Shown: one piece after another, positions 15,504-49,539 of the stretch
How positions within the stretch are numbered: the first letter of the stretch is position 1
Layout of the letters: every line of letters starts with the position of its first letter
DNA from: Clavaria fumosa
Lineage: Eukaryota > Basidiomycota > Agaricomycetes > Agaricales > Clavariaceae
Assembly: GCA_951802425.1 (NCBI GenBank)
Contig: OX637795.1
Span: forward strand, 3,948,501-4,012,500
Direction of reading: 5' to 3'
Length of the DNA stretch: 64,000 nucleotides
The notes under the pieces: generated by a model
Database searches by the model: none
Told to the model about the DNA's origin: nothing
The model's input: the letters and a program-made list of their open reading frames with translations, nothing else
Made by a program: the position numbers and the translations under genes

Positions 15504-15545
15504 GTCCGAACTGGTGTCTCAAGAGTAGTCACCCCAGCCCCCCTT

Positions 15546-18500
15546 CCGTCCCTGTGTCTGCAGTGAGTATACCCAAATATACAATCTTGCAGTGGAGACA
15601 TACCCGAATTGAGGCTGAGGAGAAGGACAAAGCGGAAACGGAAACCGCTAAGAGCGAAATACCGAAAAGAGAAAAGGGGACTAGCAGCAAAGTGGAGCCG
15701 ACAAAGCGCCTTACAGAGGTGCTGAAGGACACCCTATTGCGCATGCCCCAAGAGCTCTCCATCCAGGTGCACCTGGAGGCTCTCAGCACTGGCAAAGGGG
15801 CAACTACGAAAGCCCTTGTCGACTCAGGCTGCACCAACTGCTTTATGGACTTGGAGTGGGCAAAAAAAGTGGGATTGGAACCATCTCCCTTGCTGAATCC
15901 AATCACCATGTATAATGTGGATGGAACACAGAACAGAGATGGTAAGATCCGGTATGGGATGGAGCTGCTTGTGATGGTTGGCGACCACCAGGAGCAGATC
16001 CACTTCCTGCTAGGGAAGACCCAGTCCCACACGGCAATCCTTGGGCATGATTGGCTAAAGCGTCATAATCCAGAGATTGACTGGGTGAAAGCTGAAGTAA
16101 GGCTCACCCGCTGCCCCAACACCTGTGCCTCCTCCCCACACAGCCACTGGCCCCCTGCCCAACCCTCAGTTCCACTGAAAGCAAGTACCCTGGCCTCAGC
16201 CAGTATCCCAGACACCCATTTTCCCAACACTGGCCCTACCCCTGATTGGCCCAGCTGCTACCCTTTGGTTTTTAGTGAAGCAAAGTGGGATGAGCTTCCC
16301 TGCTCCCGCCCTGACTTTGATATCAAAATTGAGTTTAAAACAGACCCTGGACACCTCTCCTCTAAGCTATACTCTCTGATGCGAGAAGAGATGGTGGAAA
16401 TGAATCGCTGGGTGGATGAGCAGCTAGCTTCTGGACGAATCCGACCTTCGAAGTCCCCGTACGCGAGCCCCTTCTTCTTCAAACATGAGAAGGACAAGCT
16501 GCAGCTGATTATCAATTACTCTAGGCTGAACTCATATCTAATCAAAGACAAGTACCCCCTCCCCCTCATACGAGACACTGTGGATGTGTTAAAGGGGGCA
16601 ACCATCTATTCCAAGATTGATGCAAAGGGAGGTTTCCCATCGATGCAGGTCTGGCCAGAACATCAGCACCGCTGTGCTTTCCTAATGCCTTGTGGACTCT
16701 TTGAACCGGCAGTTATGTGGTTTGGGCTGCAGAATGCGCCTGCAACCTTCCAGCGCTTCATGAACCATGTGTTGAGGGAAGAGATTGCAGGGGGGCATGT
16801 CCGAGCCTATGTCGATGATGTTATAGTGTTTGCAGAGGATTTGGCTACACATTGGTATTGGATGGATTGGGTCTTGAAGAAGTTTGGGGAGAATGGCCTG
16901 TGTCTCAGACTCAGCAAGTGCAAGTTCGAGAAGAGTGAGGTTTTCTTCCTGGGGATGAAGATCTCCCACAACCATCTAGAGCATGACCCAGCTAAAGGCG
17001 CAGCAATCCATAACTGGCCCAGACCGAAGAATGTGAAAGAGGTACAAAGATTCAACGGGATGCTGAACTACCTCTGCTGGCACATCCCAAACCTCTCTGC
17101 CCGGGCAAAACCACTCTTCCGGCTGACAGGGAAAGTCCCATGGAGATGGGAGGAGGAGGAAGAAGCAGCCTTCCAAGATCTCCACCTGGCACTAGTATCA
17201 GCCCTGGTCTTGGCTCTACCACAAGACAAAGGGAGATGGAAGGTAGAAACGGATGTGAGCAACTTGGCAACTGGAGGAGTTCTCTCGCAGCAGCAGGTGG
17301 ATGGGACCTGGAGAGTTGTAGACTACATCTCCAAAGCCCTCACTGCAGCTGAGAAGAATTACGATGTGTATGACAAGGAGTTCCTGGCTGTAATCCGGGC
17401 ACTACACGAGTGGCGGGCTTACCTGATTGGGGTGGAAGAGACTATTGAAATCTGGATGGACCATGCTAACCTCCAGTACTTCCGGAAGCCCCAGAAGTTG
17501 AAACCGAGGCAGGTCCATTGGGTTGGAGAGCTCCAGTGCTTTGACTTCGAGATCAAGTACCATACTGGGAAGTCAAACATGAAAGCTGATGCACTCTCAT
17601 GGAGGCCAGATTATGGAGAGATGGTGGAGGAGGATGCACCAGTACAGGTCTTCCCAGAGGCTGAGACCCGGACATCATTCACATCGGAGATGGAGACGCT
17701 ACTCCAGAAAAACAGCGCGGTATATGTGCAGAAGCCAGAGGAGCTTGATGATGAGTGGACGAGAGATCGGATGGGACTCTGGCGGAAGGCAGAAATCACT
17801 TGGGTGCCCCCAGAAGCACATGAGGCAGTGCTCACCTTTGAGCATGACCTCCCCATTGCAGGGCACCCTGGTCCACAGAAACTGAGGGCGGCTCTGCTGA
17901 GGTCCTACTGGTGGGTGGGCATGGTGAAGGATTCCAATTGGTATGCAGGTGGATGCAAGACATGCCAACGAATCAAGCCTGATCGTACCAGGCGTGCTGC
18001 TCCGCTCCATCCACACCCTGTCCCTGAGAGTCCCTGGGCAGTCATCTCTTGGGACATTGTTGGGCCTTTCCCCCTCTCACGTGGTCACAATGCAATCCTT
18101 GTCATTGTCAACAAGTTTACAAAACGAACTCTCATCGAAGCTATTGGCCTTGACCTCATGGGACTTGGTGCTGCTCAGATCCTTCGAGACTGGGTCTTCT
18201 GTGACCATGGAGTCCTGCAGAAAGTTGTGAGTGACCGGGGAACCCAATTCGTGTCCAGATTCATGAGGGAGTTCTATGGGATGATTGGAGTTAAGGCAAA
18301 CCCGAGCACTGCCTTCCACCCACAAACAGATGGACAGACAGAGCAGGTCAATCAGGAGGTTGAAGTGTATCTCCAGGCCTATGTTGACCATCTGCAGGAT
18401 GATTGGGCAGAGTGGCTATCCACAGCCGAATTCGCACTCAATAACCATGAGCACTCAGCCACCGGATTCACACCTTTCTATCTGGAGTATGGCTGGCACC

Positions 18501-19123
18501 CTTGGAATGGTGGTATCTGGCTGCCCTCTGAAGTGAACCCTGCAGCAGACGAGTGGATGGCCAAGCTCACGGAATCCCAAAGAGCAGCCAGGGATGCAAT
18601 GGGGAAGGTGGCAGATGCAATGAAGGCTAGCTATGATAAAGGAAAGCACCCGAGTCATGAATACTCAAAGGGGGACTTAGTCTGGCTGGATACCCGGAAC
18701 CTGAAAATGGATCGACCATCCAAGAAGCTTGACAACAAGCAGGCTGGACCTTTCACTATCGAAGAGAAGGTTGGACCAGCAGCATACCGACTCAAGCTCC
18801 CCCGAGCATGGCACATTCACCAGGTTTTCAATGAGTTGCTACTCACCCCGTATATTGCTCCCTCTTTCCCTTCCCAGAACTTGCCTCCACCCCCACCCCC
18901 CATGATTGACGATGACCACTTGGAGTATGAGGTGGAGGAAATTCTTGATGTCAAGAAGGTTGGACAGGGAGTGAAGTATTTGGTGAAGTGGTTAGGATAC
19001 CCTGCAGAGGAGAACACCTGGGAACCTTGTTGCAACCTCACTAACGTTGCACTGTTGCTCCGGGACTTCTTCCAGCAATACCCTGACAAGGCAAAGTTGG
19101 CAGGTCGAGACGCCCAGCCTTAA
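15546..19123 (+). CDS. Element B pol (protease, RT, RNase H, integrase, chromodomain)
   Basis: The frame is open to the stop at 19121-19123. Domains in order: aspartic protease with ALVDSGCTNCF near 15815; reverse transcriptase with the catalytic YVDDVIVFAED near 16810; RNase H with VSNLATGGVLS near 17255; integrase with HDLPIAGHPG and CKTCQ (zinc site) and WDIVGPFP, SDRGTQF and TEQVNQE (DDE triad); and a C-terminal chromodomain (YLVKWLGYPAEENTWEP near 18980). In the related element C gag and pol form one frame, so no separate pol start is expected. The feature is placed from the first pol-like residues (SIPKYTI). Expression here depends on read-through from the damaged gag, so autonomy is doubtful. 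The proteins might still act in trans. Confidence 0.88.
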
Positions 19124-30494: not shown

Positions 30495-31238
30495 CTTGGG
30501 GCCTACAGTGACAGTTGTAACAAATGAGGGGTTGTCATGGTCCCTGACTTCAGTTGGTTTGCATCAGGGTACCTTGTTGTGTGCCCAGAGGGGCTGGCCT
30601 ATCCCATTGGCCTCAAGGGGCTCCTTGGGTCTGTTGTTGTGGCTGTTGCTGCTGTGGCTGTTGTTGCCACTGCACTCATTGCAGTTGTTGTGGCTGCTGC
30701 TGGCCCCATTGGGTAGGTAAATTGAAGGTCAGTTGGGGTTGCCACTGCAGTGAGTGGAAGAAGTGGTTCTGCAGAGGGGGTTGTCTCAGTTGGTTCCAGG
30801 CAGGGCAGGGGCTGGGCTGTGCCTGCATTTCTCTCTGTACTGCCATGTGCAATTGGTGCTGCCTGTCCAGGCATATGGCAAGCATGCAGAAGGCTTGGTA
30901 GTCCGCAGGCTGGTCTGTGCATGTGAGGATCTTCTCCATGAGCTTTGGGTAGACTGCCCTCATTAGCAAGGCATGTATCACATTCCAATGGGTATCTTCC
31001 TCATACCCTGCTCGGTTCATGAGTGTTTCAAGCCTTTGGAAAAATTGCGCCACATCCATCTGTACCTGCTTGAAGTTGTTAAGTTCCTGCATGGCCAAGG
31101 CTTGGTCCTCGATGGGAGAGAAGGCCTCTCTCATTTGAGCTTCGAACATGGCCCAAATTACAAGCTTGCCTCCTTCTTCTAGTAGCACATTCACAGCTTG
31201 ATTTGCCCATTCTGTGGCATATCCTTCTGTCATGTGGC
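30495..31238 (-). pseudogene. Element H gag, C-terminal part
   Basis: Minus-strand coding from 31238 down to about 30600 contains EGYATEWANQAVNVLLEE, AMFEAQMREAFSP and FQRLETLMNRAGYEED, a Ty3-type capsid. It is followed by a Gln-rich tail encoded by tgttgttgtggc-type repeats. It continues the frame that begins at 42235, from which it was separated by element E. Downstream pol is missing. Confidence 0.8.
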
Positions 31239-32655
31239 TGTCAGGACCCATCCATTTTTCCTCAACATAACAACTCTATCACCACTCATGGACCTCCCGA
31301 TGTTCCCCTACCACCTCGCGAACCCCCCTACACTCTTCCGAAACCTGCTATCAACTTCCGAACACCTCTCAGGCCTCCATCATCTCCTCACGACACTCGC
31401 AATCATACCACCATACTCGCGTCACCTCCCGCCACCTCACCTTACGCGTACTCACCGCCGGACCCACTATTCGATGCTCAACACGCTCTTACACGACTCC
31501 TGCAGTGGCACGTGACTTGCCGCACGGCACACCGGCACTACTCGCGTTACTCGCGTTACCAGCGTTACTCACGTGACATACTGCCCAAAGACCGCCCAAG
31601 GTCACCTGCCTCACCAGTGCTGTCCACGTGACTGCTCGCCTGACCGCGCGACCTTAACGATGAAATGCGCCACCGGCGGTCAAGCTGTGTATCCTTTCAA
31701 ATTATGTTCTCCCTTCTTCTTCTCAGTCATCTATAACTGTGTTAGCCCTGGACCAAGCCCCTCTGCCCAGTCGTAGTTACACATACACTTATTTAGTTAG
31801 GTCATGACCCATGACCGGTCACGTCCGCGACCTTACCTATGCTTAGTTTACCCCTCGCGATCTTAGTAGAACATGTGCACGGTCACTCTACAACTAGTTA
31901 TACCCTGTACTACTATAGTCTTGTCACCTGGCGCTCTCTGTACTTTCCCTTTCTTGTCATACTCCCTGCACGTATGTATATATAAGGTCTCACATGTACT
32001 TATGGTACTCTAGACTTGATATTGATGCACATTGGTTTAAGCTTGAGGCTAGTACGCCCTTTGAGCTTGGAACCATCGCGATTGATAGGTCTTGTCTCTC
32101 TTGGTGACCACAAGATCGTCAAGACACACTCTACTCTGTTCTAACTCACCCTCTGCGCTCCTACAACTCACGCGATCTAAGTATTCTCTATTATTCGTCT
32201 TGGTACTGATCTTGGAACCCTACAGGTTCACCCGTTGGTTGGCAAAGTCATCGCCTTCACCGACACATTTCTCAACACCGTTGCGACCACCACGACCCTT
32301 CCAGTATTCTCTATTTCTTTCACCTTGTCTTTTTCCTTCTCTACGCTTCGTCGGTCGACCTTGCGACCTTCTCAGCGTTACCACTTTCTCCCACCTCATC
32401 TATTCCTTTCTTCACGCTTCATCGGTCGACTTCGCGACCCTCTCAGCGTCACCCATTTCCCCCTTCCTTGTCAATTTCCTCCTTTACACTTCATCTACCG
32501 ACTTTGCGACCTTCCCAACGACACGTCTTCACGACCTTCCGGGACCGAGCATTCTCGACTGTGCTCAACAGTTGATTGGTCTTAGCAAGTTTCCAGCATA
32601 GGTCACCAACAAGTCGATCTCCGGCACTACTATCGAGATGGGACAGGCCCTAACA
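31239..32655 (+). repeat. Element E 5' LTR
   Basis: A TATA box (tatatataagg) sits at about 31976-31986. Some 30 bp downstream, agacttgatatt (32012-32023) marks the likely transcript start. Differences from the 3' LTR are mainly CG versus TG or CA. Confidence 0.9.
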
Positions 32656-32656
32656 T

Positions 32657-32668
32657 AATATCAAGTCT
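32657..32668 (+). promoter_or_regulatory. Element E self-priming binding site
   Basis: The 12-nt aatatcaagtct lies one base after the LTR and is the exact reverse complement of agacttgatatt at 32012-32023 in the LTR. That stretch lies at the right distance from the TATA box to be the start of the transcript. This matches the Tf1-type priming arrangement. Confidence 0.65.
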
Positions 32669-32711
32669 CCCCCTCACCCCACCACTCAACACCCGGATAA
32701 CACAAACCATT

Positions 32712-34715
32712 ATGTCTTCCAGTCACACTCCTCCCCAACCAACCACTCATCACTTCCAGACACGCACAGGTAGCCGCGCGATCACTCCAATGATCTTGGA
32801 GACTACTCGCGAGCCGCCTACCACCGTTCAAGAGCGACCCGTGTCCATCGTTCAATCACAGCCCGAAGAACCCGCCCAAATCACACCTAGCCACACCTCG
32901 TCCCCGCGCGAAGAAGCCGAGACCCTCGTGGAACAGCTCGGCTACCCGCGCTTCGACCGCCCTCACCATCGTACCTATCAAATTCTCAACAACACTCGCC
33001 GCCAATACGAAGCAGGAACCCTTGACGAAGAATTAGCATACCTCGTAGAGACCACAAACCTCTATGAGCCTTTGGTACGATTGACAGATGGATTCCGCGC
33101 TAATCCACAGAACCGGTTATACAAGAGTCAGCGTCAGTATCCAGGGACTACCGACCACGGAGTTCTGACTCCTCCCGACCTGGATACCCCCTCGCGACCT
33201 CCAAGACAGGTTCAACCCACCAGAGGACCCCGGGATATGGCCCTGCTTTTCCAGGTCGCGGCTCAATCTCTTCAGAATTTCGTGAATCCTGCCGTGCCCG
33301 ATGAGCGACCAGCCATTGTCTCCAGGATCCCAAGGTACACCGCCCCTCGCAGTAGCTGGCCTATGTGGACGCAGCCAGCCACTACTCCGAGTAGGGCGCT
33401 CCCTCGTGACCCTATAGGGACCGAAGCAACACTTCAACCTGCCCCTCGCCTCGAGATTCCGGTCGAGCCCTTCCGCATTCCACAACCAGAAGCGCGACCA
33501 GTACCCCAGATGGAGACGCGACCAGCATCTCGCCCTCTGTCTCAGGCTCAAGCTCCGCAGGTCCCTCCAGTCCCCCCTATGCATCCACACCTCATCGCCG
33601 CGCTTCGGGATGAGGCACCTGGAACCCACCATCACCACTACTATTACCAGGCCCCTCCCTCCGAAGGACCATCAGCCCGAGACGCCCTCGCTCGAGAATC
33701 CAAGCTTGACACCAGGCGCCCCGAGCCGTTCAATGGTCGCGATCGACGCAAATGGAAACCTTTCGTCACGGAATGCCTAATGACTTTCTTCGCCAAGCCC
33801 GTAACCTTCCAAGGAGATCACGAGAGGGTTACTTTCGCAGCCTCTTACCTCACGGACACCGCACAGAGCCACTACACCTCCCTCCTTCAATTCAATGCCG
33901 AACACCCGGCTCTACATTCCTGGGAAGGATTCATCTGCGAGTTTGGAGGGATGTTTGGAGTGGTCAACACACAGATTGAAGCCGACCAGAACCTTCGCTT
34001 GTTGCAGATGGGTAAAAACGAACGGTTTTCGAACCACATCATCCGTTTCGAGTCCTTCGCTTTTGAATCCAACTGGAACTCGGCCGCCTTACAATCCGAA
34101 CTCTATTGCTCGATGTCCACACGCATCAAAGAGGCCATGAAAGTCATTCCGCGACCCATGACGTATCAAGAACTTCGCGATTTGGCAATGCAAATTGACC
34201 AGAGGCACTGGGAGTATGAGAGTGAGACCCGCCGAACTCAATTTCGCGCTAACCCTCCTACTCCTCGTCCCCCTGTTCAACAAGGCGGAAATCGCCCTTT
34301 GGCTCAACAAGGCAGAAATCGCAATTACCAAGCAATGTCGCGACCTTACCCCGCCACTGGAAATAATCCTACGACGCCCCGACCAGCCGCAGGGAACCCT
34401 GTGACTTCACCGCGACCCGCCAATCTGCCTCGCCAGCCGAATCCGAATCCGAACTCGCCCTACATCCCCCTTAGCGATGAGGAACGAGAACGTCGTCATC
34501 AGGGAAATCTCTGTATGAGATGTGGAAAGCCCGGACACTACAGCACTGCTTGCCCCGATCGACGAATAGCCGGACAAGCCATCTTCACGCTAGAGGAAGG
34601 AGAGGAAGAATTACAGGAAGAATACGAAGTTGAGGAAGAAGTGGAAAAAGATGTGGATGACCCGCACGAAGAGTTAAACGAGGAAGCGACTCAGGAGCTT
34701 CCGGGGGAACTCTGA
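32712..34715 (+). CDS. Element E gag
   Basis: This is an open frame of 667 codons. A long Pro/Arg-rich N-terminal half (to about residue 300) precedes a Ty3-type capsid region (FNGRDRRKWKPFVTECLM, LHSWEGFICEFGGMFG, about 335-440). A CCHC knuckle (CMRCGKPGHYSTAC, about 600-613) and an acidic tail (EEGEEELQEEYEVEEEVE) follow. It would form cytoplasmic particles around element RNA. The stop at 34713-34715 separates it from pol, which lies in another frame, so pol expression would need frameshifting or re-initiation. The frame is intact although pol is not. Confidence 0.88.
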   Translation: MSSSHTPPQPTTHHFQTRTGSRAITPMILETTREPPTTVQERPVSIVQSQPEEPAQITPSHTSSPREEAETLVEQLGYPRFDRPHHRTYQILNNTRRQYEAGTLDEELAYLVETTNLYEPLVRLTDGFRANPQNRLYKSQRQYPGTTDHGVLTPPDLDTPSRPPRQVQPTRGPRDMALLFQVAAQSLQNFVNPAVPDERPAIVSRIPRYTAPRSSWPMWTQPATTPSRALPRDPIGTEATLQPAPRLEIPVEPFRIPQPEARPVPQMETRPASRPLSQAQAPQVPPVPPMHPHLIAALRDEAPGTHHHHYYYQAPPSEGPSARDALARESKLDTRRPEPFNGRDRRKWKPFVTECLMTFFAKPVTFQGDHERVTFAASYLTDTAQSHYTSLLQFNAEHPALHSWEGFICEFGGMFGVVNTQIEADQNLRLLQMGKNERFSNHIIRFESFAFESNWNSAALQSELYCSMSTRIKEAMKVIPRPMTYQELRDLAMQIDQRHWEYESETRRTQFRANPPTPRPPVQQGGNRPLAQQGRNRNYQAMSRPYPATGNNPTTPRPAAGNPVTSPRPANLPRQPNPNPNSPYIPLSDEERERRHQGNLCMRCGKPGHYSTACPDRRIAGQAIFTLEEGEEELQEEYEVEEEVEKDVDDPHEELNEEATQELPGEL

Positions 34716-34789
34716 GTCACGACGAACCAACCCCCATACTCGCGCGGGCCGCAACTAGTTCCTCTTCCCCTCAGTTTCTTCGCGACTTT

Positions 34790-37700
34790 TCTAATACGCC
34801 CATTGCTTCCCAGTCCTCCCAATCTTTCCTCATAAAGACACAAATACCAGATTTCGGCTCGATTCTCCTAAATACTCTTGTGGACTGCGGCGCATCCATG
34901 AATTTTATCGATTCAGCACTTGCAAACACCCGTCCAAACCTCCTAATACCACTCCCACAACCCCTACCGCTTCAATATTTCGACGGAAGTTCCTCTAGAT
35001 CCAATATAACCCACTACGTCCTCGCTAATACAAAATTTCCTGACGATACTATCCAACCCATTAAGTTCCTTGTCACTAAGACCCATCCTCTCACCCCTGT
35101 GGTTCTAGGACTCGATTGGTTGTGAACCTGGAACCCTAGGATCGATTGGACCAACCTCACTTTCAGTTTCGGACAGACAGCCCGCTCCACGACTATCCCT
35201 CTCACTCTTTTGGATGCGAAACCCCCAAGTAAACCTTCCCCTGACCTCGCGAATTCGGCACCGAAACCCTCTAAACCCCCGCAAGTTCAATTGGTCAAGG
35301 CCACCACGCTTTGTCAATTGGAACAACAAGGAGAATTTATAGGTCTCCTATACTTCCAACCCGCGAGCAACCCCTATGACGACGAATCCATACTCGCGAG
35401 TTCCGCGACCACTCAATCCCCTCCGAAACCCGAAGAAACAGTCCCGCACGAGTATCACGACTTCCTGGACATCTTTTCTGAAGATCTAGCCCGGGAATTA
35501 CCTCTGCACCGCGACTACGACCACCGAATTGAAATTGAGGAAGGCGAAACACCTCCTCACGGGAAGCTGTACAACATGTCAGAAGTGGAGTTAAAGACGT
35601 TAAAAGATTATTTGGACGACATGTTGGACAAAGGCTTCATTCGGCCATCGAAATCCCCCACAGGTGCACCGGTACTCTTTGCGAAGAAGAAAGATGGAAG
35701 CCTTCGCCTCTGCGTCGACTATCAAGGTCTCAACAAGATCACCCGCAAAAATCGCTACCCCATTCCTCGAATTGAGACCCTCGTCGACCAATTACGCTTG
35801 GCCAAAATCTACTCGAAGATCGACCTCCGTGTTGGGTATAACAACGTGAGGATAGCTGAAGGAGACAAGTGGAAAACTGCGTTCCGCACTCGCTACGGCG
35901 CGTTCGAATATCTTGTCATGCCATTTGGACTCACGAATGCACCTGCGACCTTTCAGCACCTTATGAACGATATCTTTCACGATCTGGTCGACGTCAACAT
36001 AGTAGTCTACCTCGACAACATCTTAATCTACTCGGACAACCTCGAAAAGCATCGCGACCACGTCCGAGAGGTCCTACGACATCTATGCAAGGCAGACTTA
36101 CATGCACAACCCGAGAAGTGTGATTTCCACACCACGATGGTCAAATACCTTGGAGTTATAGTGTCCCCCGACGGAATTGCCATGGATCCTTCAAAAATAC
36201 AGGCCATTCTAAGTTGGACCATACCCACGAAGATCCACGACCTTCAGAGCTTTTTAGGCTTTGCTAATTTCTATTGAAGATTCATAGATAACTATTCCGG
36301 CATCGTTATTCCACTTACGCGACTCCTCCGCAAGGATACGCCTTGGAAATGGAGTCCACGATGCCAAGAAGTCTTTGATATCCTCAAACAAGCCTTTACC
36401 GAAGCTCCCGTCCTCCGGCACTACGACCCTGATTACCCCATTACGCTCGAATGCGACGCTTCCGACTATGCGATAGCGGCCATTCTCTCTCAAACCGATC
36501 CCGCGACTAACAAGCTACATCCCATTGCTTTCCACGCACATACAATGATCGCCGCAGAGCTCAACTACGACATTTATGACAAAGAGCTCCTCGCGATACA
36601 TGATGCATTCAAGCAATGGAGAGCGTACCTTGAAGGCGTGCGATACCAAATTCAGGTCTTTTCAGACCACAATAACTTATGTTATTTCACCACCACGAAG
36701 CAACTCAGCCGTCGACAAGCCCGCTGGGCAGAGTACCTTTCCAGTTTCGACTATGTAATTCATTATCGAGCAGGAAAGCTAGGCGCGAAGCCAGATGCCC
36801 TCACGTGATGACCCGACGTCTAACCGAAGAAATCCGACCAACCCGTGACCAATGCACAAAACAATAAGGTCACGATACCACTGGAATTACTTCGAGCAGC
36901 TGTCATCCTCAACGAAGAAGCCCTGATTTCGCGAATTCGACACGCTCCTCGCGACTCCTACTTCTCCAAGAAAACACAGGCGCTTCACAAGGTCGCGACA
37001 AGGCGTTCTCGCTCTTGCCCAATGGCTCACTACTACTTTGTAACAGTAAAATATACGTCCCCGATCACGACTCCCTCCGATTCGATATCTTATGCTCCAA
37101 TCACGACCATAAACTACGAGGACATCCAGGTATAAGAAAGACAACCCAGCTAATAAACAGGTTGTTTTTCTGGCCAGGACTCCGAAAGGACGTAACCGTC
37201 TACGTCCGTGGTTGTCACACCTGCGCAAGGGCAAAACCCGTCCGGCACAAACCCTACGGACTCCTCAAGCCCTTACCCATAGGCGAGCGACCTTGGTCTT
37301 CGATTTCGATGGACCATATCAAAGCCCTCCCCCTCTCCGCGACCTTTGACTCGATTCTCGTTGTCATCTGCCGACTTACGAAACAAGCAATCTTTATCTC
37401 CACCAACACTACCGACACCGCGAAAGAGTTAGCTCAACATTTTGTCACCCATGTCTTCTCAAAGCATGGGCTACCTGCAGACATAGTGTTGGATAGAGGA
37501 AGATTATTCGTTTCTAAGTTTTGGTCTTCGTTATGTCAGGCTTTGGATATTACTTCAAATCTTTCCACAGCCTATCATCCTGAGACTGACGGACAAACCG
37601 AACGAGTCAACCAGATCTTGGAGCAATATATACAAATCTATACGAACTACCAGCAGGACGACTGGACCCACCAACTTCCGCTTGCTGAGTTCGTATACAA

Positions 37701-38373
37701 CAACACCCCCCACAGCGCGACTGGTGTCTCCCCGTTCTTCGCGAACAAGGGATACCACCCAAGACTCACGATTTCCCTCGAAGGGATACCTGCGCATGAA
37801 GCACACATGGTCACAACTGATCTCAAGATGCTCCATCAGCACTTATGAGATCAACTCAAGGTTGCGAATGAGGCCTACTCGCGCTTTGCGGACAGGAAGA
37901 GAGAGGTTACACCGGACTGGAAAGAAGGAACAAAGGTGTGGTTAGACTTACGGAATGTGAAGACAAAGAGACCGATGAAGAAATTGGACTCGAAACGAGC
38001 CGGACCTTTCCCCATACTTGCAAAAGTTTCGACTCACGCATATCGTCTCCAGTTACCGAAATCGATGCGAGAAATTCACGATGTTTTCCACGTTTCGTTA
38101 CTCGAGAAGGTCTACAACGATGCTTTCCCCCAGCGGCAACAGCAACCCCCACCCCCTATCGAGGTCGATGGCGAACAACATTATGAAGTCGCCAACATAC
38201 TAGATTCTCGAAGGAGGGGTAGGAAAGTGCTTTACCTCGTACGATGGGAAGGTTACGGACCCAAGGATGACACCTGGGAACCAATAGAATCACTTTCTGG
38301 CTCGAAGGAACTCCTCAAGGACTTCCACGCGACCTACCCGGAAAAACCTCGCGCAACTCGCGCAACTCAATAA
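34790..38373 (+). pseudogene. Element E pol with multiple stops
   Basis: Domain order is protease (VDCGASMNFIDSAL near 34880), RT (GLTNAPATFQHLMNDIF, VVYLDNILIYSDNLEKH), RNase H (DASDYAIAAILSQ, VFSDHNNLCYF), integrase (GHPGIRKTTQLINRLFFW, CHTCARAK, MDHIKALP, DGQTERVNQILEQY) and chromodomain (YLVRWEGYGPKDDTWEP, near 38230). In-frame TGA codons at 35123, 36275, 36806, 36809 and 37846 all stand where relatives have Arg (CGA). A TAA lies at 36821 and a frameshift between about 36965 and 37015. RT has YLDN instead of YxDD. E cannot move on its own. Confidence 0.88.
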
Positions 38374-38471
38374 TTTTCCTCGCCTCTTTCTTGTTTTTTC
38401 TTCACTTTCTCACTTCGGACTTCACAGCAATTCATATATACGCAATAAAAATACAACAAGAAAATTTCTAT

Positions 38472-40513
38472 CTACTGGTCGCAAGCTTTTTCCTTCCCCT
38501 TTCGCAACCCTTCTGCTCCTTCCCCGCCTTCCACACTCGCGACTTCTTCTTCCTCTCCCCCCTTATCCTCCTTTCCAACCACGGGACCCTTCAACTCCAC
38601 ACCCCACTGGTCCACCCTCGGGAGATCCAATAGTTCCCTCCGCACGCGACGTTGCTCCTGCTCCGCCCATTTCTCCACCCATGGCGGGAGCTCTTGAGGC
38701 GGCTTCAGCAAGAGGTCTTCGTAGGCAAAGAAGACCGTTTCGAGGCCTCGTCGTCCTCGAAATCGAGCCTCGCGGAGCTCGCTGACCATCGTCGCACACC
38801 GACTGCGCAATTCTAGAAACAAACCATCAGCCCATCGTCAAGAATACGAAATCTGCGATGACTTACCTTGTTCCTGCTCCCTCGACGCCGATAACTCCCC
38901 CTCCATCTTCCCTACAGTCGCGAACAATCCTATAAAAAAGACACGAATTAGTTCGTTTTATACTCACGACTGTAGAACTTACTGTGTTCCAACTCCTCCG
39001 CCTCCGCGAGCCTACGCTGAAGCTCCTCCAGTTCAATCCTTTGATCTAGATAAACAGGAGAATCAGTTAGAACGTCGCGAGGTGAAATTATGACTTAACG
39101 GCCCATTCCTTTTTCACCGTCGCGATTACCCCCTTTACTTCCTCAAATCCTTCGCGAGTCTTTCCTGTCGACGCCAACCACTCTACGGGCAAATTAGCTT
39201 ATTTCACACTCGCAAGAGTTGACTTACCTTCTTTCTCCTTCTTCAAATCCTTTACTTCGCGACACGAGTCCCTCAATTTGGTCTCCTGGTCTGAGGAAAC
39301 AAGGAAATTACTTTGTGACATGGTAAAACAAGTGAATACTTACCTTCCCAGTCACCCTCAAGCACCTCGAAATCCCTCTCCACCTCCACTATCCGCGCCC
39401 TCAATTTTGCGATCTCCGCATCCACCTCCTCCCTCCCTTTCCCTGCCAACATGCGAATTCAGTAAAAACACGAAAAGCCAGGGAGCATTGGACACTTACC
39501 TTTGTCACCCCTCCGCAATGCTACCAACTCGCGTTTCGCTACCGCCAGCTCTGCATCCAACTCCGTCTCCCAATGTGACTTGTATACCCACGCAATCTTC
39601 TGCATGGGTTCCGCGACTTGCTGATGGAGCGTCACGAGCTCCCTCTCGAGATTGACCCTTGGGACCAAGGTCCCCGCAACCTTCCCTCCCTCCTCCACCA
39701 ACTCCCTTGACGACACCGGTTTCGCGACTCGCCTTTTTGTCGATGGACCGGGTGTCGGGGACCGCGACTGAGCCCTGGTTTGTTTCCCGTGAGTCGGCTG
39801 GGTAGGAGTCCCCGGGACAGACAGGGTAGCATACCCTGCCCCCACTTGACTTGTGACCTTCGGAGTCGCCACCCCCAGCGTTTCCGACCCTTCGGCGCGC
39901 TTCAGCGCCTCGTCGACCCGCACGTCATCCCAACCGTATTCATTTTTGACGTGCCATCGCCGAAATTCTTGGACCCAGGAACATTTGCTGTGGTCCTCTG
40001 TGCACTGGCGACACTTGCCGGCAGTGCTACGCACACACTGCCGGCCCTTTGCGACACAATTGTCGCAGTCCTGTGTTTTAACAATTAGAAGGGACAAGTG
40101 GAACGAGAAATACTATTACACACCTCGCGCTCCCTCTCGTTCCACTCCTTATTCTCCTTCACTGACCCGATTTTCTTCCAAGCTTTTAGAAATTCTGCGG
40201 GCGACGGGTGAGCCCCACCCACGACTTCGCCCCTTATTCCACTAGGGCCCGCAACATTTTCTTCCGCCCGACTTGGGCCTGCGATGTCGCTCCTCATTTC
40301 GCTAGAGCCCGCAACCTTGCCCTTCTTCTTTTCACGCCCCACGGTTTCTTCGCGAAGACGCGCGCATCACTCTTGCTCGGCCTTTTGGTGGGCCAACATC
40401 TCGGCCAGCGCCTCTTTGTCGCGGCTAGCCTCACCCCTTTTGAACTCCTCGTATTCACGCATTTCGTGTTCAAGTTGGGTTCCAGTGTGTTTGAGGACGT
40501 TGGAGGAGACCAT
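38472..40513 (-). CDS. Antisense spliced gene: Zn2Cys6-like, coiled-coil protein
   Basis: The gene lies between pol and the 3' LTR, opposite to pol. Exons: 40513-40124, 40070-39500, 39442-39344, 39290-39228, 39182-about 39099, 39045-38983, 38929-38867, 38812-38472; stop TAG. Introns are 45-57 nt, and five begin gtaagt. Together they give about 427 residues. Exon 2 opens with a cluster spaced C-x2-C-x6-C-x7-C-x2-C-x6-C (CDNC...KCRQC...KC), the spacing of fungal Zn2Cys6 domains, at about residues 131-160. A Ser/Pro/Thr linker follows, then a charged coiled coil. Exons 4, 6 and 7 are each 63 nt in phase 1, i.e. three heptads. Two lesions are visible: a TGA at 40367-40369 in exon 1 (CGA-type) and a damaged donor after exon 5 (ttaagt). 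Role unknown; a DNA-binding or regulatory function is only inferred from the cysteine pattern. Confidence 0.7.
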
Positions 40514-40629
40514 GATGGTTGAACTTAGAGGAAAATTTCGAGTGTCGTGACCTGATCAACAAACATCGTGCTGACTAACAGTCACATGACCTCCACTCTC
40601 GCAGGGCTCGAGGCTTGAAGGGGGGGTAA

Positions 40630-42043
40630 TGTCAGGACCCATCCATTTTTCCTCAACATAACAACTCTATCACCACTCATGGACCTCCTGACGTTCCCCT
40701 ACCACCTCGCGAACCCCCCTACACTCTTCCGAAACCCGCTATCAACTTCCGAACACCTCTCAGGCCTCCATCATCTCCTCACGACACTCGCAATCATACC
40801 ACCATACTCGCGTCACCTCCCGCCACCTCACCTTACGCGTACTCACCGCCGGACCCACTATTCGATGCTCAACATGCTCTTACACGACTCCTGCAGTGGC
40901 ACGTGACTTGCCGCACGGCACACCGGCGCTACTCGCGTTACTCGCGTTACCAGTGTTACTCACGTGACATACCGCCCAAAGACCGCCCAAGGTCACCTGC
41001 CTCACCAGCGCCATCCACATGACCGCTCACCTGACCGCGCGACCTTAACGATGAAACGCGCCACCGGCAGTCAAGCTGTGTATCCTTTCAAATTATGTTC
41101 TCCCTTCTTCTCAGTCATCTATAACTGCGTTAGCCCTGGACCAAGCCCCTCTGCCCAGTCATAGTTACACATACGCTTATTTAGTTAGGTCGTGACCCAT
41201 GACCGGTCACGTCCGCGACCTTACCTATGCTTAGTTTACCCCTCGCGATCTTAGTAGAACACGCGCACGGTCACTCTACAACTAGTTATACCCCATACTA
41301 CTATAGTCTTGTCGCCTGGCGCTCTCTGTACTTTCCCTTTCTTGTCATACTCCCTGCACGTATGTATATATAAGGTCTCGCATGTACTTATGGTACTCTA
41401 GACTTGATATTGACGCACATTGGTTTAAGCTTGAGGCTAGTACGCCCTTTGAGCTTGGAACCATCGCGATTGATAGGTCTTGTCTCTCTTGGTGACCACA
41501 AGATCGTCAAGACACACTCTACTCTGTTCTAACTCACCCTCTGCGCTCCTACAACTCGCGCGATCTAAGTATTCTCTATTATTCATCTTGGTACTGATCT
41601 TGGAACCCTACAGGTTCTCCCGTCGGTTGGCAAAGTCATCGCCTTCACCGACACATTTCTCAACACCGTCGCGACCACCACGACCCTTCCAGTATTCTCT
41701 ATTTCTTTCACCTTGTCTTTTTCCTTCTCTATGCTTTGTCGGTCGACCTCGCGACCTTCTCAGCATTACCACTTTCTCCCACCTCGTCTATTCCTTTCTT
41801 CACGCTTCATCGGTCAACTTCGTGACCCTCTCAGCATCACCCATTTCCCCCTTCCTTGTCAATTTCCTCCTTTACGCTTCACCTACCGACTTCGCGACCT
41901 TCCCAATGACACGTCTTCGCAACCTTCCGGGACCAAGCATTCTTGACTGTGCTCAACAGTTGATTGGTCTTAGCGAGTTTCCAGCATAGGTCACCAACAA
42001 GTCGATCTCCGGCACTACTATCGAGACAGGACAGGCCCTAACA
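40630..42043 (+). repeat. Element E 3' LTR
   Basis: This is the second long LTR, preceded by ggcttgaagggggggtaa and followed by gtggc. The antisense gene starts 116 bp before it, so its promoter may lie in or beside this LTR. Confidence 0.9.
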
Positions 42044-42235
42044 GTGGCTTAAGCAGAAGACTACCTTGTGGAAGTCCATCAGGTACTTGGCCTCGTTTAC
42101 TTGGAATTCCAGATGCAGGCTTCTCAAAAAGGTCTGGAACTCCTCCCTCTTTCCAGAGTACATGGTGATCTTTAGGGAGAAAGTGGCAGGGGCGAGGGGT
42201 GGTGCTGGTTCCGGTGCAGGTGCGGTGTCCACCAT
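42044..42235 (-). pseudogene. Element H gag, N-terminal part
   Basis: The frame begins at 42235 (MVDTAPAPEPAPPLAP) and runs through YSGKREEFQTFLRSLHLEF to KVVFCLSH, where element E interrupts it. Removing E and one gtggc joins it in frame with EGYATEWANQ at 31238 and below. This fixes H as an older Ty3 element in minus orientation. Confidence 0.8.
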
Positions 42236-44516: not shown

Positions 44517-47500
44517 TTAAGGCTGGGCGTCCCGACCAGCTAGCTTGGCCTTGTCGGGGTGAGCAAGGAAGAAGTCCCGGAGAAGCAGTGCCACATTGGT
44601 GAGGTTCCGTCGTGGCTCCCAAGTGTTCTCCTCTACAGGGTATCCCAACCACTTCACCAGGTATCTCACTCCACGCCCCACCTTCTTAACATCAAGGATC
44701 GCCTCCACATCATACTCCAGGTGGTCATCATCAATCGTAGGGGGCGGAGGGGGAGGCAGGTTCTGAGAAGGGAAGGAAGGGGGGTGGTATGGTGTCAACA
44801 GCAACTCATTGAAGACCCGATGGATGCGCCAGGCCCGAGGGAGCTTGAGGCGATACCCAGCAGGTCCCACCTTCTCCTCAACTGCAAAGGGGCCTGCTCT
44901 CTTGTTGTCAAGCTTTTTACAGGGCCGGTCCATCTTCAAGTTTCTAGTATCCAGCCAGACCAGATCTCCCTCAGAGTACTCCCGACTTGGGTGTTTCCCC
45001 TTATCGTAGCTCTTCTTCATCGCTGCCACCGCTTTCTCCATTGCCTCCTTGGCTGCTCTTCGGGACTCCGTGAGCTTAGCCATCCACTCGTCCGCTGCCG
45101 GGTTCACCTCAGAAGGTGGCCGGAGCCCCCCATTCCATGGGTGTCGTCCATAATCGAGGAAGAAAGGTGTCTGTCCTGTCGCTGAGTGCTCACGATTATT
45201 AAGAGCAAACTCCGCAGTGGACAACCATTCAGCCCAGTCATCCTGGAGATGGTCCACGTAAGCCCGGAGATAGATCTCCATCTCCTGGTTCGCCCGTTCC
45301 GTCTGTCCATCAGTCTGTGGATGAAAGGCAGTACTTGGATTTGCCTTTACCCGGATCATGGAGTAGAACTCCTTCATGAAGCGGGACACGAACTGGGACC
45401 CCCGGTCACTCACAACCTTGTGAGGGACTCCATGGTCACGAAACACTCGATCCCGGAGGAGACGCGCCGCTCCAAGTCCTGTGAGGTCGAGCCCGATCGC
45501 TTCGAGCAGTGTCCGTTTTGTGAATTTGTCGACAATAACAAGGATGGCATTATGTCCACGGGAGAGGGGGAGGGGACCGACTATGTCCCATGAGATCACC
45601 GACCAGGGACCATCAGGCACCAGATGGGGGTGCAGTGGGGCAGCACGCTTGGTACGGTCGGGCTTCGTCCGCTGGCATGTCTCACACCCCTGGGCATACC
45701 GATCCGCATCTTTTACCATGTCTGGCCACCAATAACCCTTCACTAGTGCTGCTCTCAACTTCCGGGGCCCAGGGTGTCCAGCAGCAGGGAGGTCATGCTC
45801 AAACTCAAGAACGGCCTCACGAGCTCCTAGGGGGACCCAAGTGACTATCCCCTTTCGCCAGAGTCCAGCACGATCTCGTGTCCACTCATCATCAAGCTCC
45901 TCCGGCTTCTGTATGTGTACCGCGCTATTTTTCTGGAGTAGCGTCTCCATTTCCGATGTGAATGACACACGGACTTCCGTTTCCGGGAAAACCTGCACCG
46001 GTGCATCCTCCTCCACCATCTCTCCATAGTCCGGTCTCCGGGAGAGTGCATCTGCCTTTGTATTCGACTTGCCAGTGCGATACTTTATCTCAAAGTCAAA
46101 GCACTGGAGCTCTCCCACCCAACGAACCTGCCTTGGCTTCAACTTCTGCGGCTTCCGGAAGTACTGGAGGTTTGCATGGTCCGTCCAGATCTCGATCGTC
46201 TCCTCTGCTCCAATGAGGTATGCTCGCCACTCGCGAAGTGCCCGAATCACAGCCAAGAACTCCTTGTCGTACACATCGTAGTTCTTCTCAGCTGCAGTGA
46301 GGGCCTTGGAGATATAGTCAACAACTCTCCAGGTTCCATCCATCTGCTGCTGCGAGAGCACTCCACCAGTTGCCAGGTTGCTTGCATCTGTCTCTACCTT
46401 CCATCTCCCTTTGTCCTGAGGCAGAGCCAAGACCGGGGCCGATACGAGTGCCTGGCGGAGATCTCGGAAGGCTGCTTCCTCCTCCTCCTCCCATTTCCAT
46501 GGAACATTCCCAGTCAGCCGGAAGAGTGGCTTTGCCCTGGCAGAAAGATTCGGGATGTGCCGGCGGAGGTAGTTCAGCATCCCATTGAACCTCTGGACAT
46601 CCTTCACATTCTTAGGACGTGGCCAATCTCGGACTGCCGCACCCTTGGCCGGATCATGCTCTAGTCTGTTGTGGGAGATCTTCATCCCCAGGAAGATGAT
46701 CTCACTCTTCTCAAACTCGCATTTACTGAGTTTGAGACACAACCCATTCTCTCCAAACTTCCTCAAGACCCGATCCATCCAGTACCGGTGTGTAGCCAAG
46801 TCCTCTGCAAACACAATGACATCATCCACATAGGCCCTCACATGTCCTCCTGCAATCTCCTCCCTCAACACATGATTCATGAAGCGTTGGAAGGTAGCAG
46901 GGGCATTCTGCAGTCCAAACCACATGACAGCTGGTTCGAAGAGTCCACGGGGTGTCAGGAAGGCGCAGCGGTGCTGGTGCTCGGGCCAGACCTGCATAGA
47001 TGGGAAACCTCCCTTTGCATCAATCTTAGAGTAGATCGACGCTCCTTTAAGCACATCCACTGTGTCTCGGATGCGGGGGAGGGGGTACTTGTCCTTGATC
47101 AGGTGTGCATTCAGCCTCGAGTAGTCGATGATTGGCCGCAGTTTGTCCTTCTCATGTTTGAAGAAGAAGGGGCTGGCATACGGGGATTTTGAGGGCCGGA
47201 TTCGTCCAGAAGCAAGCTGCTCATCCACCCAACGGTTCATCTCCACCATCTCCTGCCGTGTCAAAGAATACAGCTTGGAGGAGAGGTGCTCAGGGTCCTT
47301 TTTGAACTCGATCTTAATATCGAAGTCTGGTCGGGAGCGGGGAAGTTCATCCCACTTTGCTTCACTAAACACCAAAGGGTAGCGGCTGGGCCAATCGGGG
47401 GTAGGGCCAGAGTTGGGAAAACGGGTGTCCAGAATACTCGTGGATGCGAGGGTACTCGTTTTCAGGGGTGCAGAGGCTCGAGGGGATGGGGAACACTGTG

Positions 47501-48968
47501 GGGGGCAGCGGGTAAGGCTCAGCTCTGCCTTCTGCCAGTCGATATCCGGGTTATGCCGCTTGAGCCAGTCATGCCCAAGGATGACCTTGTGGGACTGGGT
47601 CTTTCCCAGCAGAAAGTGGATCCGCTCCTGGTGGTCACCAACTCTCACCAGCACCTCTATCCCATACCGGACCTTTCCATTCCTGTTCTGTGTCCCATCC
47701 ACATTATACATGGTGATTGGGTTCAGCAGGAGAGATGGCTCCAGTCCCACTCCTTTCGCCCACTCCAAATCCATGAAGCAGTTGGTGCACCCTGAGTCGA
47801 CAAGGGCCTTCATTGTGGTCCCTTTGCCAGTGCTGAAAGCCTCCAAGTGCACCTGGATGGCTAGCTCTCGTGGCACATGTTTCCGCACTTCTGGCCGCAC
47901 TCTGGTTAGGTGCTCTGCCAGTCTCACTTCCTCCTTCACCTCAGCCCCAATTCGGGTATGTCTCCGCTGCAAGATAGTATATCGGGGTATACTTGCAGCA
48001 GGCACAGGGACGGAAAGGGGGCTGGCACACTTCTTCTCCCCAGTGGGAGTCCTCCTCTCTCTCTCACACAGCTCTATGCAGGCTCGGAGCCGTGCAATCT
48101 CTTTCTCATATCCCTCCGCCATTTGGGGGGCACATGGTGCTGCCCGGGTTTGGGCCCTTGGGACCTGCAGACGCATATCAGGCAGGGGGCAGAAACGGAC
48201 AGCATGGCCAGTCTGGTGGCATCGGAAACAACATCTCTCATCAGCAGGGGCCCATCCTCGGGCCATGGCCACATCTGGAGTACACAGCAGAGGGGTCACA
48301 AGAGGTCGCGAAATGGTCACGGCAGGTCGCGGTAGGGTCATGGTGGGTCGCACGGGGGTCACAGTGGGTCGCGGTGTCCGTTCCGTGAGTATCCCATCCA
48401 GTCGCCTTTGCTGGGCATCAAGCCTCTCAGCCAGCACCTTCCATTCTCCATATGTCTCTGGCATCGGGGAGACACCATAGATTCTCTCCACCAACCTCCT
48501 ACTCAGGTTCAACTCCAGCCAATGGACTAGGATTCCTGAGTCCTTCTCTGCACTCAACTTCGCCCGTCGGAACAGCGTCTCGAATTTCGCGAAGAACTCT
48601 GGTGCTGTCATGGCACCCTGTTTCAGCCCTGCAATATTGGCAAGGGCAGTCGCACGGTCATTCGGGTCATCGAATGTGCGCTTCATCTCCTCCACAAACT
48701 CTGCCCAGGTTCCGGCCTCGCCACTACCCAGGATCTCTTCCGCCTTCATATTCGCCCACTCTGCAGCAAATCCTTCTCCAGTAATTTTGCTCAGAGCAAG
48801 AAGGACCTTCACCAGGTCCACAGCATAGACAGTCGGGTTCGCCATAAACAGGAGGCGAAGGGATCGGAGGAACGTACGGAAGTTCCTTTTCTGCCCATCA
48901 AAGGGGGCAACAGATAGGTCAAGCCTCATAGGTTGGGCTACAGGCGGGGCGACATGGTCTGCCATCAC
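44517..48968 (-). CDS. Element C gag-pol polyprotein
   Basis: This single frame of 1483 residues starts at 48968 (MMADHVAPPVAQP). Domains in order: capsid (about 15-200, with LVHWLELNLSRRLVERIYG); CCHC knuckle (CFRCHQTGHAVRFC, about 247-260); aspartic protease (ALVDSGCTNCFMD, about 388-400); reverse transcriptase (catalytic YVDDVIVFAED in the middle of the protein); RNase H (DASNLATGGVLSQ); integrase with HHCC (HDLPAAGHPG, CETCQRTK) and DDE (SWDIVGPLP, SDRGSQF, TERANQE); and a C-terminal chromodomain (YLVKWLGYPVEENTWEP, about 1430-1470). All catalytic residues are present. Gag and pol are fused without a frameshift or stop, as in Tf1-like elements. Chromodomains of such integrases bind methylated histone H3 and steer insertions into heterochromatin, which fits the nested landscape here. 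Confidence 0.95.
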   Translation of the reverse strand: MMADHVAPPVAQPMRLDLSVAPFDGQKRNFRTFLRSLRLLFMANPTVYAVDLVKVLLALSKITGEGFAAEWANMKAEEILGSGEAGTWAEFVEEMKRTFDDPNDRATALANIAGLKQGAMTAPEFFAKFETLFRRAKLSAEKDSGILVHWLELNLSRRLVERIYGVSPMPETYGEWKVLAERLDAQQRRLDGILTERTPRPTVTPVRPTMTLPRPAVTISRPLVTPLLCTPDVAMARGWAPADERCCFRCHQTGHAVRFCPLPDMRLQVPRAQTRAAPCAPQMAEGYEKEIARLRACIELCERERRTPTGEKKCASPLSVPVPAASIPRYTILQRRHTRIGAEVKEEVRLAEHLTRVRPEVRKHVPRELAIQVHLEAFSTGKGTTMKALVDSGCTNCFMDLEWAKGVGLEPSLLLNPITMYNVDGTQNRNGKVRYGIEVLVRVGDHQERIHFLLGKTQSHKVILGHDWLKRHNPDIDWQKAELSLTRCPPQCSPSPRASAPLKTSTLASTSILDTRFPNSGPTPDWPSRYPLVFSEAKWDELPRSRPDFDIKIEFKKDPEHLSSKLYSLTRQEMVEMNRWVDEQLASGRIRPSKSPYASPFFFKHEKDKLRPIIDYSRLNAHLIKDKYPLPRIRDTVDVLKGASIYSKIDAKGGFPSMQVWPEHQHRCAFLTPRGLFEPAVMWFGLQNAPATFQRFMNHVLREEIAGGHVRAYVDDVIVFAEDLATHRYWMDRVLRKFGENGLCLKLSKCEFEKSEIIFLGMKISHNRLEHDPAKGAAVRDWPRPKNVKDVQRFNGMLNYLRRHIPNLSARAKPLFRLTGNVPWKWEEEEEAAFRDLRQALVSAPVLALPQDKGRWKVETDASNLATGGVLSQQQMDGTWRVVDYISKALTAAEKNYDVYDKEFLAVIRALREWRAYLIGAEETIEIWTDHANLQYFRKPQKLKPRQVRWVGELQCFDFEIKYRTGKSNTKADALSRRPDYGEMVEEDAPVQVFPETEVRVSFTSEMETLLQKNSAVHIQKPEELDDEWTRDRAGLWRKGIVTWVPLGAREAVLEFEHDLPAAGHPGPRKLRAALVKGYWWPDMVKDADRYAQGCETCQRTKPDRTKRAAPLHPHLVPDGPWSVISWDIVGPLPLSRGHNAILVIVDKFTKRTLLEAIGLDLTGLGAARLLRDRVFRDHGVPHKVVSDRGSQFVSRFMKEFYSMIRVKANPSTAFHPQTDGQTERANQEMEIYLRAYVDHLQDDWAEWLSTAEFALNNREHSATGQTPFFLDYGRHPWNGGLRPPSEVNPAADEWMAKLTESRRAAKEAMEKAVAAMKKSYDKGKHPSREYSEGDLVWLDTRNLKMDRPCKKLDNKRAGPFAVEEKVGPAGYRLKLPRAWRIHRVFNELLLTPYHPPSFPSQNLPPPPPPTIDDDHLEYDVEAILDVKKVGRGVRYLVKWLGYPVEENTWEPRRNLTNVALLLRDFFLAHPDKAKLAGRDAQP

Positions 48969-49539
48969 AGGCCCTGGATGCTGTAAATAAAGTTCTGGGC
49001 CTTGGGCACTCAGGATTTCTTCGATCTCTTAACAGTCCTGTCCTCTTAGGCTGCTCTTCTGTGTACTTATGTACCTATAGAACTCTTATTCTATGAAACT
49101 TTTGTTAACGTGGGGCCTGAATGGTGTCCCAGGTGGTCGCTCCACAACTCCTAATGAGTTGCCCGTGCGCCCTTCTGACAATGGTCACAGAGCAAGGGCC
49201 CTGTCCACTGGACCAGGAAACTACAGAAAGACTATGTAGGGGCCTTTCCTTGCCCTGTACACTACACGATTCACTGGTACGTAGCTGTAAAACAAAGTTC
49301 CGGGCCTTGGGCACTCGGTATCACTTGGGGAGGGTCACAGTTGACTTCCTCCTGGTCTGGTCACGTGTATCTACACACAGTAAAAATTTCGCGCGGTTCT
49401 GTTACACACCGCGGGCAGGGTAAAGGAGAAGAGGATGATAGGGGCTGAGCTGTGACAACGTGTCACAGTTTGAAATTAAGGGTCCAGGCTAGCCGGGTTA
49501 GGACACGGGGCTAGGGCGGACAGGCGGATCTTAGTATTA
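48969..49539 (-). other. Element C leader
   Basis: This untranslated leader between the 5' LTR and gag is homologous to the B leader (13888-14509) and the D leader. No other open frame of note. Confidence 0.7.
49528..49538 (-). promoter_or_regulatory. Element C self-priming binding site
   Basis: On the plus strand atcttagtatt (49528-49538) is the exact reverse complement of aatactaagat (49585-49595) in the adjoining 5' LTR. The latter lies about 40 nt from a TATA-like tataagt on the minus strand (49633-49639). Element B has the same arrangement with one base changed on both sides. Confidence 0.65.

Follow-up and report, generated by a model that had tools for sequence, protein, structure and literature searches.

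Does an LTR retrotransposon of the basidiomycete Clavaria fumosa carry, on the strand opposite to gag and pol, a spliced gene that is kept as a protein, and what might that protein do? The question was raised by an earlier note on the window, as we call the whole stretch of 64,000 nucleotides that was analysed, which read an eight-exon gene between pol and the 3' LTR of one element. This element (31239-42043) is a Ty3 chromovirus: its pol contains RT, RNase H, integrase and a chromodomain, its LTRs are paired, and a 5-bp target site duplication, GTGGC, was read directly on either side (31234-31238 and 42044-42048). The 5' LTR (31239-32655) is 96.3% identical to the 3' LTR (40630-42043), with 50 mismatches in 1417 columns. 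On the plus strand, the gag ORF (32712-34715) has a weak zinc-knuckle match (Pfam Retrotrans_gag E 9.8e-5, zf-CCHC E 0.0097, both under their respective cut-offs). It is followed by pol (35126-38373, from Pfam and ORFs; with a Tf2-type SH3 domain, SH3_Tf2-1, between integrase and chromodomain), which in the window copy is split into several frames by stops. The antisense gene (38472-40513) comes next, and then the polypurine tract AAGGGGGGG, read directly at 40618-40626. Within the 3' LTR, U3 extends to about 41390 with a TATATAA at 41365, and R/U5 follows, the start of R being a predicted one.

Alignment of copies bore out the position of the gene, its ATG at 40513 on the minus strand and its seven introns. 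Exon 1 (40124-40513) is followed by intron 1 (40071-40123, GTGTGT..CAG) and by exon 2 (39500-40070), in which a six-cysteine cluster, an RRW helix, an NLS-like stretch and the start of a coiled coil were recognized from the sequence. Then come intron 2 (39443-39499), exon 3 (39344-39442), intron 3 (39291-39343), exon 4 (39228-39290; 63 nt, three heptads of coiled coil), intron 4 (39183-39227), exon 5 (39099-39182; 84 nt, four heptads), intron 5 (39046-39098), exon 6 (38983-39045; 63 nt), intron 6 (38930-38982), exon 7 (38867-38929; 63 nt), intron 7 (38813-38866) and exon 8 (38472-38812), which encodes a conserved C-terminal domain (RGRRGLETVFFAYEDLLLK..) and the stop codon. Direct reading agreed with the earlier description of the introns: they are 45-57 nt long, five of the seven begin with GTAAGT, and all end in AG. 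The coding sequence is longer than the roughly 427 codons proposed at first, comprising 557 codons and a stop (1674 nt).

The window copy itself is broken, which the earlier description had overlooked: because a TGA lies in frame at codon 49, in exon 1, we regard it as a damaged copy. The single junction that had been noted as losing the frame is that of intron 5, where the donor conserved in other copies is not GT in the window. Such damage would suit an explanation by chance, in which open stretches and splice-like sites happen to lie opposite a non-coding 3' region. We searched the organism's own genome (a 48.8-Mb assembly in 17 contigs) at the DNA level and obtained at least 56 matches, with the best 40 of 179 candidates scored. 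Thirty-four loci were collected, 27 of which were aligned with the window copy to give 28 rows; the other seven, all partial copies (L021, L022, L035-L038 and L042), lie outside the alignment. Beside one of these truncated copies, about thirteen 126-bp repeats stand in a tandem array (L035:759-2391).

The splice sites are conserved across these copies, and the gene, introns included, is thus part of the element family. Of the 182 introns in 26 rows, 175 have GT-AG ends, a count that drops L040 and L041, whose exons 5 and 6 were unalignable; with all 28 rows included, 183 of 196 have them. In the 26 rows intron lengths vary among copies, mostly by non-multiples of three; exons 4, 5 and 7 are constant in length and exon 6 changes once. 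A branch-like motif, YTRAY, is present in introns 1, 4, 5, 6 and 7 in 21-26 of the 26 rows, in intron 3 in 12 and in intron 2 in one, compared with 54 of 1040 exonic control windows. This conservation of splice sites, exon lengths and frame, together with the purifying selection described below and the presence of the gene throughout the family, refutes chance ORFs, a reading to which we assign next to no probability.

Exons 4 to 7 measure 63, 84, 63 and 63 nt, or 21, 28, 21 and 21 codons, all multiples of the heptad, and each is flanked by phase-1 introns. As a side observation, this symmetry (39290-38867 in the window, and in the copies) suggests that the coiled coil may have lengthened through exon duplication.

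Selection on codons was estimated by NG86 from 13 of the 28 rows, all taken from those with the overall frame intact (L032, in which it is also intact, was left out). For the antisense gene, dN/dS was 0.16-0.27 when subfamilies were compared with each other; within the window's subfamily it was 0.29-0.56, as would be expected if copies decay once inserted. In eight pairs, shifted sense frames gave 0.95-1.45 with 14-23 stops. The reverse frame r1, whose wobble positions are aligned with those of the gene, gave 0.31-0.38 in eight pairs; we put these low values down to the aligned wobble positions, and the 3-7 stops rule this frame out as a true gene. Judged by its codons, the antisense gene is kept as a protein by purifying selection, in line with what had been anticipated if the gene were real. 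Copies that are fully open and have seven GT-AG introns make up four of the 28 rows, one in an element and three near-identical ones standing alone. The in-frame stops in the 13 frame-keeping copies were 15 TGA, 4 TAG and no TAA, as if decay proceeded mainly through C-to-T changes.

The same data bear on the proposal that the antisense transcript is itself the product, pairing with genomic RNA in RNA silencing or copy-number control while the frame is incidental. Antisense roles of this kind have been discussed for LTR elements, as passages of PMC7264820 relate. Nevertheless, a dN/dS of 0.16-0.27 against values near 1 in shifted sense frames, with exon lengths and splice sites kept, argues that the protein is selected, and we consider the transcript-only proposal very improbable.

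How widely the gene is carried was assessed with three genome probes. Exon 8 gave at least 110 matches, exon 2 at least 151 (the best 150 of 236 candidates scored) and integrase at least 151 (the best 150 of 1717 candidates scored). Coordinates were paired for 110 of the approximately 150 integrase matches and 143 of the approximately 150 exon-2 matches listed, second pieces of one place being mostly omitted; a close integrase match at C3:133562 (87%) lies outside the pairing, and its inclusion would add one pair. Of the 110 places matched by exon 8, at least 69 are followed closely downstream by an integrase on the other strand, usually at a distance of 0.9-1.3 kb. Among the integrase matches listed, 82 reach 81% identity or more, and 70 of these have an exon-8 or exon-2 match nearby on the opposite strand, so that other copies do carry the gene. 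Within the window, two other pol frames (15473-19123 and 44517-49028) were tried as carriers of a similar gene and rejected, lacking a long antisense ORF of this kind after pol; the ORF lists used for these elements held frames of at least 100 and at least 110 codons, which short exons would escape. The frame at 44517-49028, on the minus strand, belongs to another LTR family; it is gag-pol-like and open over 1503 codons.

In a sister clade with integrases of 60-68% identity, the exon-8 and exon-2 probes found a partner in only one of 17 cases. One member of this clade, L044, has its own antisense ORFs, in which a cysteine cluster and a coil are present, and when its antisense Cys ORF was used as the probe, a match lay antisense downstream of integrase in 16 of the 17 sister-clade rows; some of these matches contain stops. 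For this pairing, integrase was represented by 17 rows of the sister clade and 49 distant ones, and the Cys ORF by the 23 of its 63 rows that cover the Cys part. A third integrase group (53-56%) had a match to the antisense gene in none of its 49 rows, a result that covers homologues only. The sister-clade Cys ORF did not match window exon 2 significantly by BLASTP (E 0.31); we infer from place, strand and cysteine pattern that it is the same gene. At L033:5448-5534, on the minus strand, a Cys domain of the sister-clade type adjoins the start of the gene, as if two antisense genes had been joined. In protein databases we found two relatives, both partial: P0001 (ENA), from a 2344-base contig, which apparently reads through introns 1 and 2, and P0003, from JGI. 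A search for relatives on viral contigs gave none.

Four copies of the gene (L023-L026) stand alone near the ends of four contigs (C11, C4, C1 and C2), at distances of 6 to 154 kb. They are near-identical, and three of the four are open; L023 has a frameshift. Each contains the gene, most of its leader and a chromodomain tail, in flanks unlike the element, and matches to integrase and LTR were absent. In L024 the similarity to the element stops 88 bases upstream of the ATG, short of the polypurine tract and the LTR. Two further sequences were observed nearby. L043 (765-2550, plus strand), near a contig end and about 13-15 kb from one stand-alone copy, is a relative with a coiled coil and the RGRRGLE C-terminal domain, without the Cys cluster. 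Beside a stand-alone copy, L024:1737-2450 on the plus strand is a separate ORF with six cysteines spaced C-x2-C-x6-C-x8-C-x2-C-x6-C; it gave no Zn_clus hit, and its BLASTP match to window exon 2 was not significant (E 0.058).

These loci could mean that the gene belonged to the host first, was captured by elements and serves the host, the element copies being passengers. Open copies that have only a chromodomain tail and neither LTR nor integrase match would agree with such an origin, as would the more distant stand-alone relatives beside them (L043 and L024:1737-2450). Against it, the stand-alone copies retain part of the element chromodomain, at 85-87% identity, and most of the element's leader, from which we deduce that they derive from the element; moreover, selection is visible between element subfamilies. 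We hold a host origin to be improbable. The opposite direction, in which L023-L026 represent a gene captured from the element, is possible.

What the protein might do was approached through its domains. From the N-terminus, it comprises an N-terminal region, a PSPAEFLKAWKKIGSVKENKEW motif, the Cys6 cluster about 130 residues in, the RRW helix, the NLS-like KRTRARSRSPTPGPSTKRR, the coiled coil and the conserved C-terminal domain. The NLS-like stretch encoded in exon 2 reads KRTR..SRSPTPGPSTKRR (as in L012), and the predicted coiled coil begins in exon 2 and spans exons 2-7 in heptad runs. Zn2Cys6 domains have the pattern C-x2-C-x6-C-x5-12-C-x2-C-x6-8-C. The cluster in the window (39981-40067, minus strand), spaced C-x2-C-x6-C-x7-C-x2-C-x6-C, satisfies this pattern (PF00172), and it shares its spacing with GAL4-type regulators, in which a coiled coil likewise follows. 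The basic run that GAL4 has behind the second cysteine is missing, and the cluster differs from the PF00172 family in its place, some way from the N-terminus, and in its score: window exon 2 reached 9.1 bits against Zn_clus, where the curated Pfam cut-off is 21 bits.

Nine Cys domains were put into one alignment; they come from elements of the window type, from the sister clade and from the separate subtelomeric ORF. Zn_clus was the family matched by most of them, seven of nine at up to E 10, with a best E of 0.1, under the curated cut-off. Pfam scans of full-length proteins gave nothing at the cut-off and no Zn_clus at E≤1. A profile of the Cys domains hit only the GAL4 DNA-binding domain in the PDB (E 1.7 and 8.2), with the six cysteines in register; the invariance of the cysteines and this register arise partly by construction, because some of the domains had been selected with the six-Cys pattern. 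The full protein gave five hits in a PDB sequence search (best E 0.033), none informative. AlphaFold models were of low confidence (mean pLDDT 55 for exon 2, 67 for the Cys segment, 47-66 for the Cys half or part), and Foldseek on these models found no Zn2Cys6 match, with 11 matches at E≤10 and none under 0.001. Of the Zn2Cys6 assignment made at first sight, the cysteine spacing held and family membership was weakly backed; since the Zn_clus and GAL4 matches are below significance, we term the cluster Zn2Cys6-like and not a member.

A real and selected gene need not encode a regulator. Its protein might instead act in the particle or in integration, as a structural, RNA-binding or chromatin-tethering accessory, and most of it is taken up by the long coiled coil and the conserved C-terminal domain, its Zn2Cys6 matches are not significant and its two database relatives are without known function, all of which would be in keeping with such a role. 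The NLS-like stretch, the Zn2Cys6 spacing of the cysteines and GAL4 as the sole PDB hits of the profile speak for a regulator, and expression that is antisense and separately promoted would uncouple the protein from Gag-Pol, which would also suit a regulator better. We regard the accessory role as unlikely, albeit the strongest of the rival explanations.

The explanation that we prefer, and to which we attach about an even chance, is that a selected antisense gene with seven predicted introns encodes a protein that probably binds DNA through its Zn2Cys6-like cluster, pairs through its predicted coiled coil and regulates the element's own LTR promoter. Its transcription is proposed to start from a conserved block of about 100 bp between the ATG and the polypurine tract (40514-40612, minus strand), a candidate antisense promoter and 5' leader. 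In this block TTAGTCAG, TGTTGATCAGG(T/C)CA and the start context CCA(C/T)CATGG were each present in 10 of 10 aligned rows. The bin 40501-40600, mostly upstream of the ATG, differs by 14-19% between the window and six diverged rows, compared with 37-56% for the same rows in the adjoining bin of exon 1 (40401-40500). Five of these rows extend further; in them, the difference is 19-21% at 40601-40700, where the polypurine tract lies and the LTR starts, and 23-35% at 40701-40800, in U3. Only the antisense transcript would be spliced, and because of this the introns would stay in the sense genomic RNA and be copied on. The protein would then enter the nucleus, dimerize and bind U3. As to the sign of regulation, activation or anti-silencing is favoured, since upkeep of the frame needs a lasting benefit to the element.

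The relation between the gene and U3 was addressed by comparing their histories with that of pol. In 13 copies with both parts, the dS of pol and that of the antisense gene are discordant; between L009 and L012, for instance, it is 0.43 for pol and 0.12 for the gene, and between L012 and L031 it is 0.26 and 0.87, respectively. Divergence profiles shift near 38400, at the border of pol and gene, and again near 41400, a little past the TATA box (41365), as would fit the edge between U3 and R. For gene, pol, U3 and R/U5 we built separate trees from one set of 16 rows. The gene tree (exons 1-4 and 8) united 11 window-family rows with support of 100/100, and this clade was rejected by the pol tree (AU p 5.6e-5) and by the R/U5 tree (AU p 8.2e-6). 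The U3 tree was compatible with it (AU p 0.37), yet the clade appeared in only 6% of bootstrap trees. Apparently, gene and LTR U3 behave as a single exchange block whose history differs from those of pol and R/U5. A template switch near the border of pol and gene, with normal strand transfer at R, would give such a mosaic pattern; the linkage of gene and U3 may also reflect their mere neighbourhood on the RNA. Tentatively, we propose a further step that is possible but less probable than the regulator itself: the 3' end would be a swappable control cartridge, consisting of an antisense gene for a Zn2Cys6-type regulator and the U3 that the regulator recognizes. Template switches in reverse transcription would pass the whole cartridge from one pol lineage to another, and its gene would have got away into subtelomeric DNA of the host, where it stands alone. 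If so, regulator and target would always move together, and a pol lineage could change its control identity in one event.

Several known systems resemble this one in part. The VANC anti-silencing proteins of VANDAL transposons are encoded by the element, act on its own non-coding DNA and have co-evolving specificity; they are unrelated proteins of plant DNA transposons, and the likeness is an analogy of working. HBZ of HTLV-1 is a bZIP protein. It is the nuclear product of an antisense retroviral gene, and the HTLV antisense promoter lies in the 3' LTR, according to passages of PMC11963269 and PMC7264820; we liken it by description only, HBZ being a protein of a retrovirus and the present gene having seven short introns. 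Antisense genes at the same position are reported for Grande, RIRE2, Retand and PvRetro13 of plants and for Boty of Botrytis and Sclerotinia (PMC7264820, PMC11963269, PMC8365987, PMC4227169). Boty of Botrytis cinerea is, like the present element, a fungal LTR element with gag, RT, IN and CHROMO domains (in a passage of PMC4227169), and its antisense gene brtn occupies the same site between pol and the 3' LTR (in a passage of PMC7264820); it too is likened by description only, the passages describing Boty mentioning neither a multi-intron structure nor a Cys6 cluster. In passages on Grande gene23, RIRE2 and Retand (PMC11963269, PMC7264820), the antisense coding region likewise lies between pol and the 3' LTR, Grande gives a nuclear product whose gene is transcribed from an upstream promoter, and the TRP28 domain of Retand is predicted to bind DNA. 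Retand belongs to a non-chromovirus plant lineage and has TRP28 where the present gene has Cys6 and a coiled coil. The word "intron" does not occur in the main text of PMC11963269 and PMC7264820, which treat the plant antisense ORFs. None of the titles and abstract openings searched, with most subscription literature outside this scope, named an antisense gene of several introns in a Ty3 element from a basidiomycete. Within the literature searched, four features seem to be new: the many introns of the gene, a protein that joins a Cys6 cluster to a coiled coil, the selection seen at the codon level, and the apparent exchange of gene and U3 as one block.

Antisense genes of LTR retrotransposons have been described mostly from plants, with functions unknown. 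The present case adds a chromovirus gene with seven introns, clear codon-level selection and a candidate DNA-binding domain. Introns on the antisense strand would explain how a spliced gene is inherited through an RNA intermediate without losing them, and the gene-U3 block, which occurs on more than one pol backbone, offers a natural experiment on the idea that the element encodes its own regulator.
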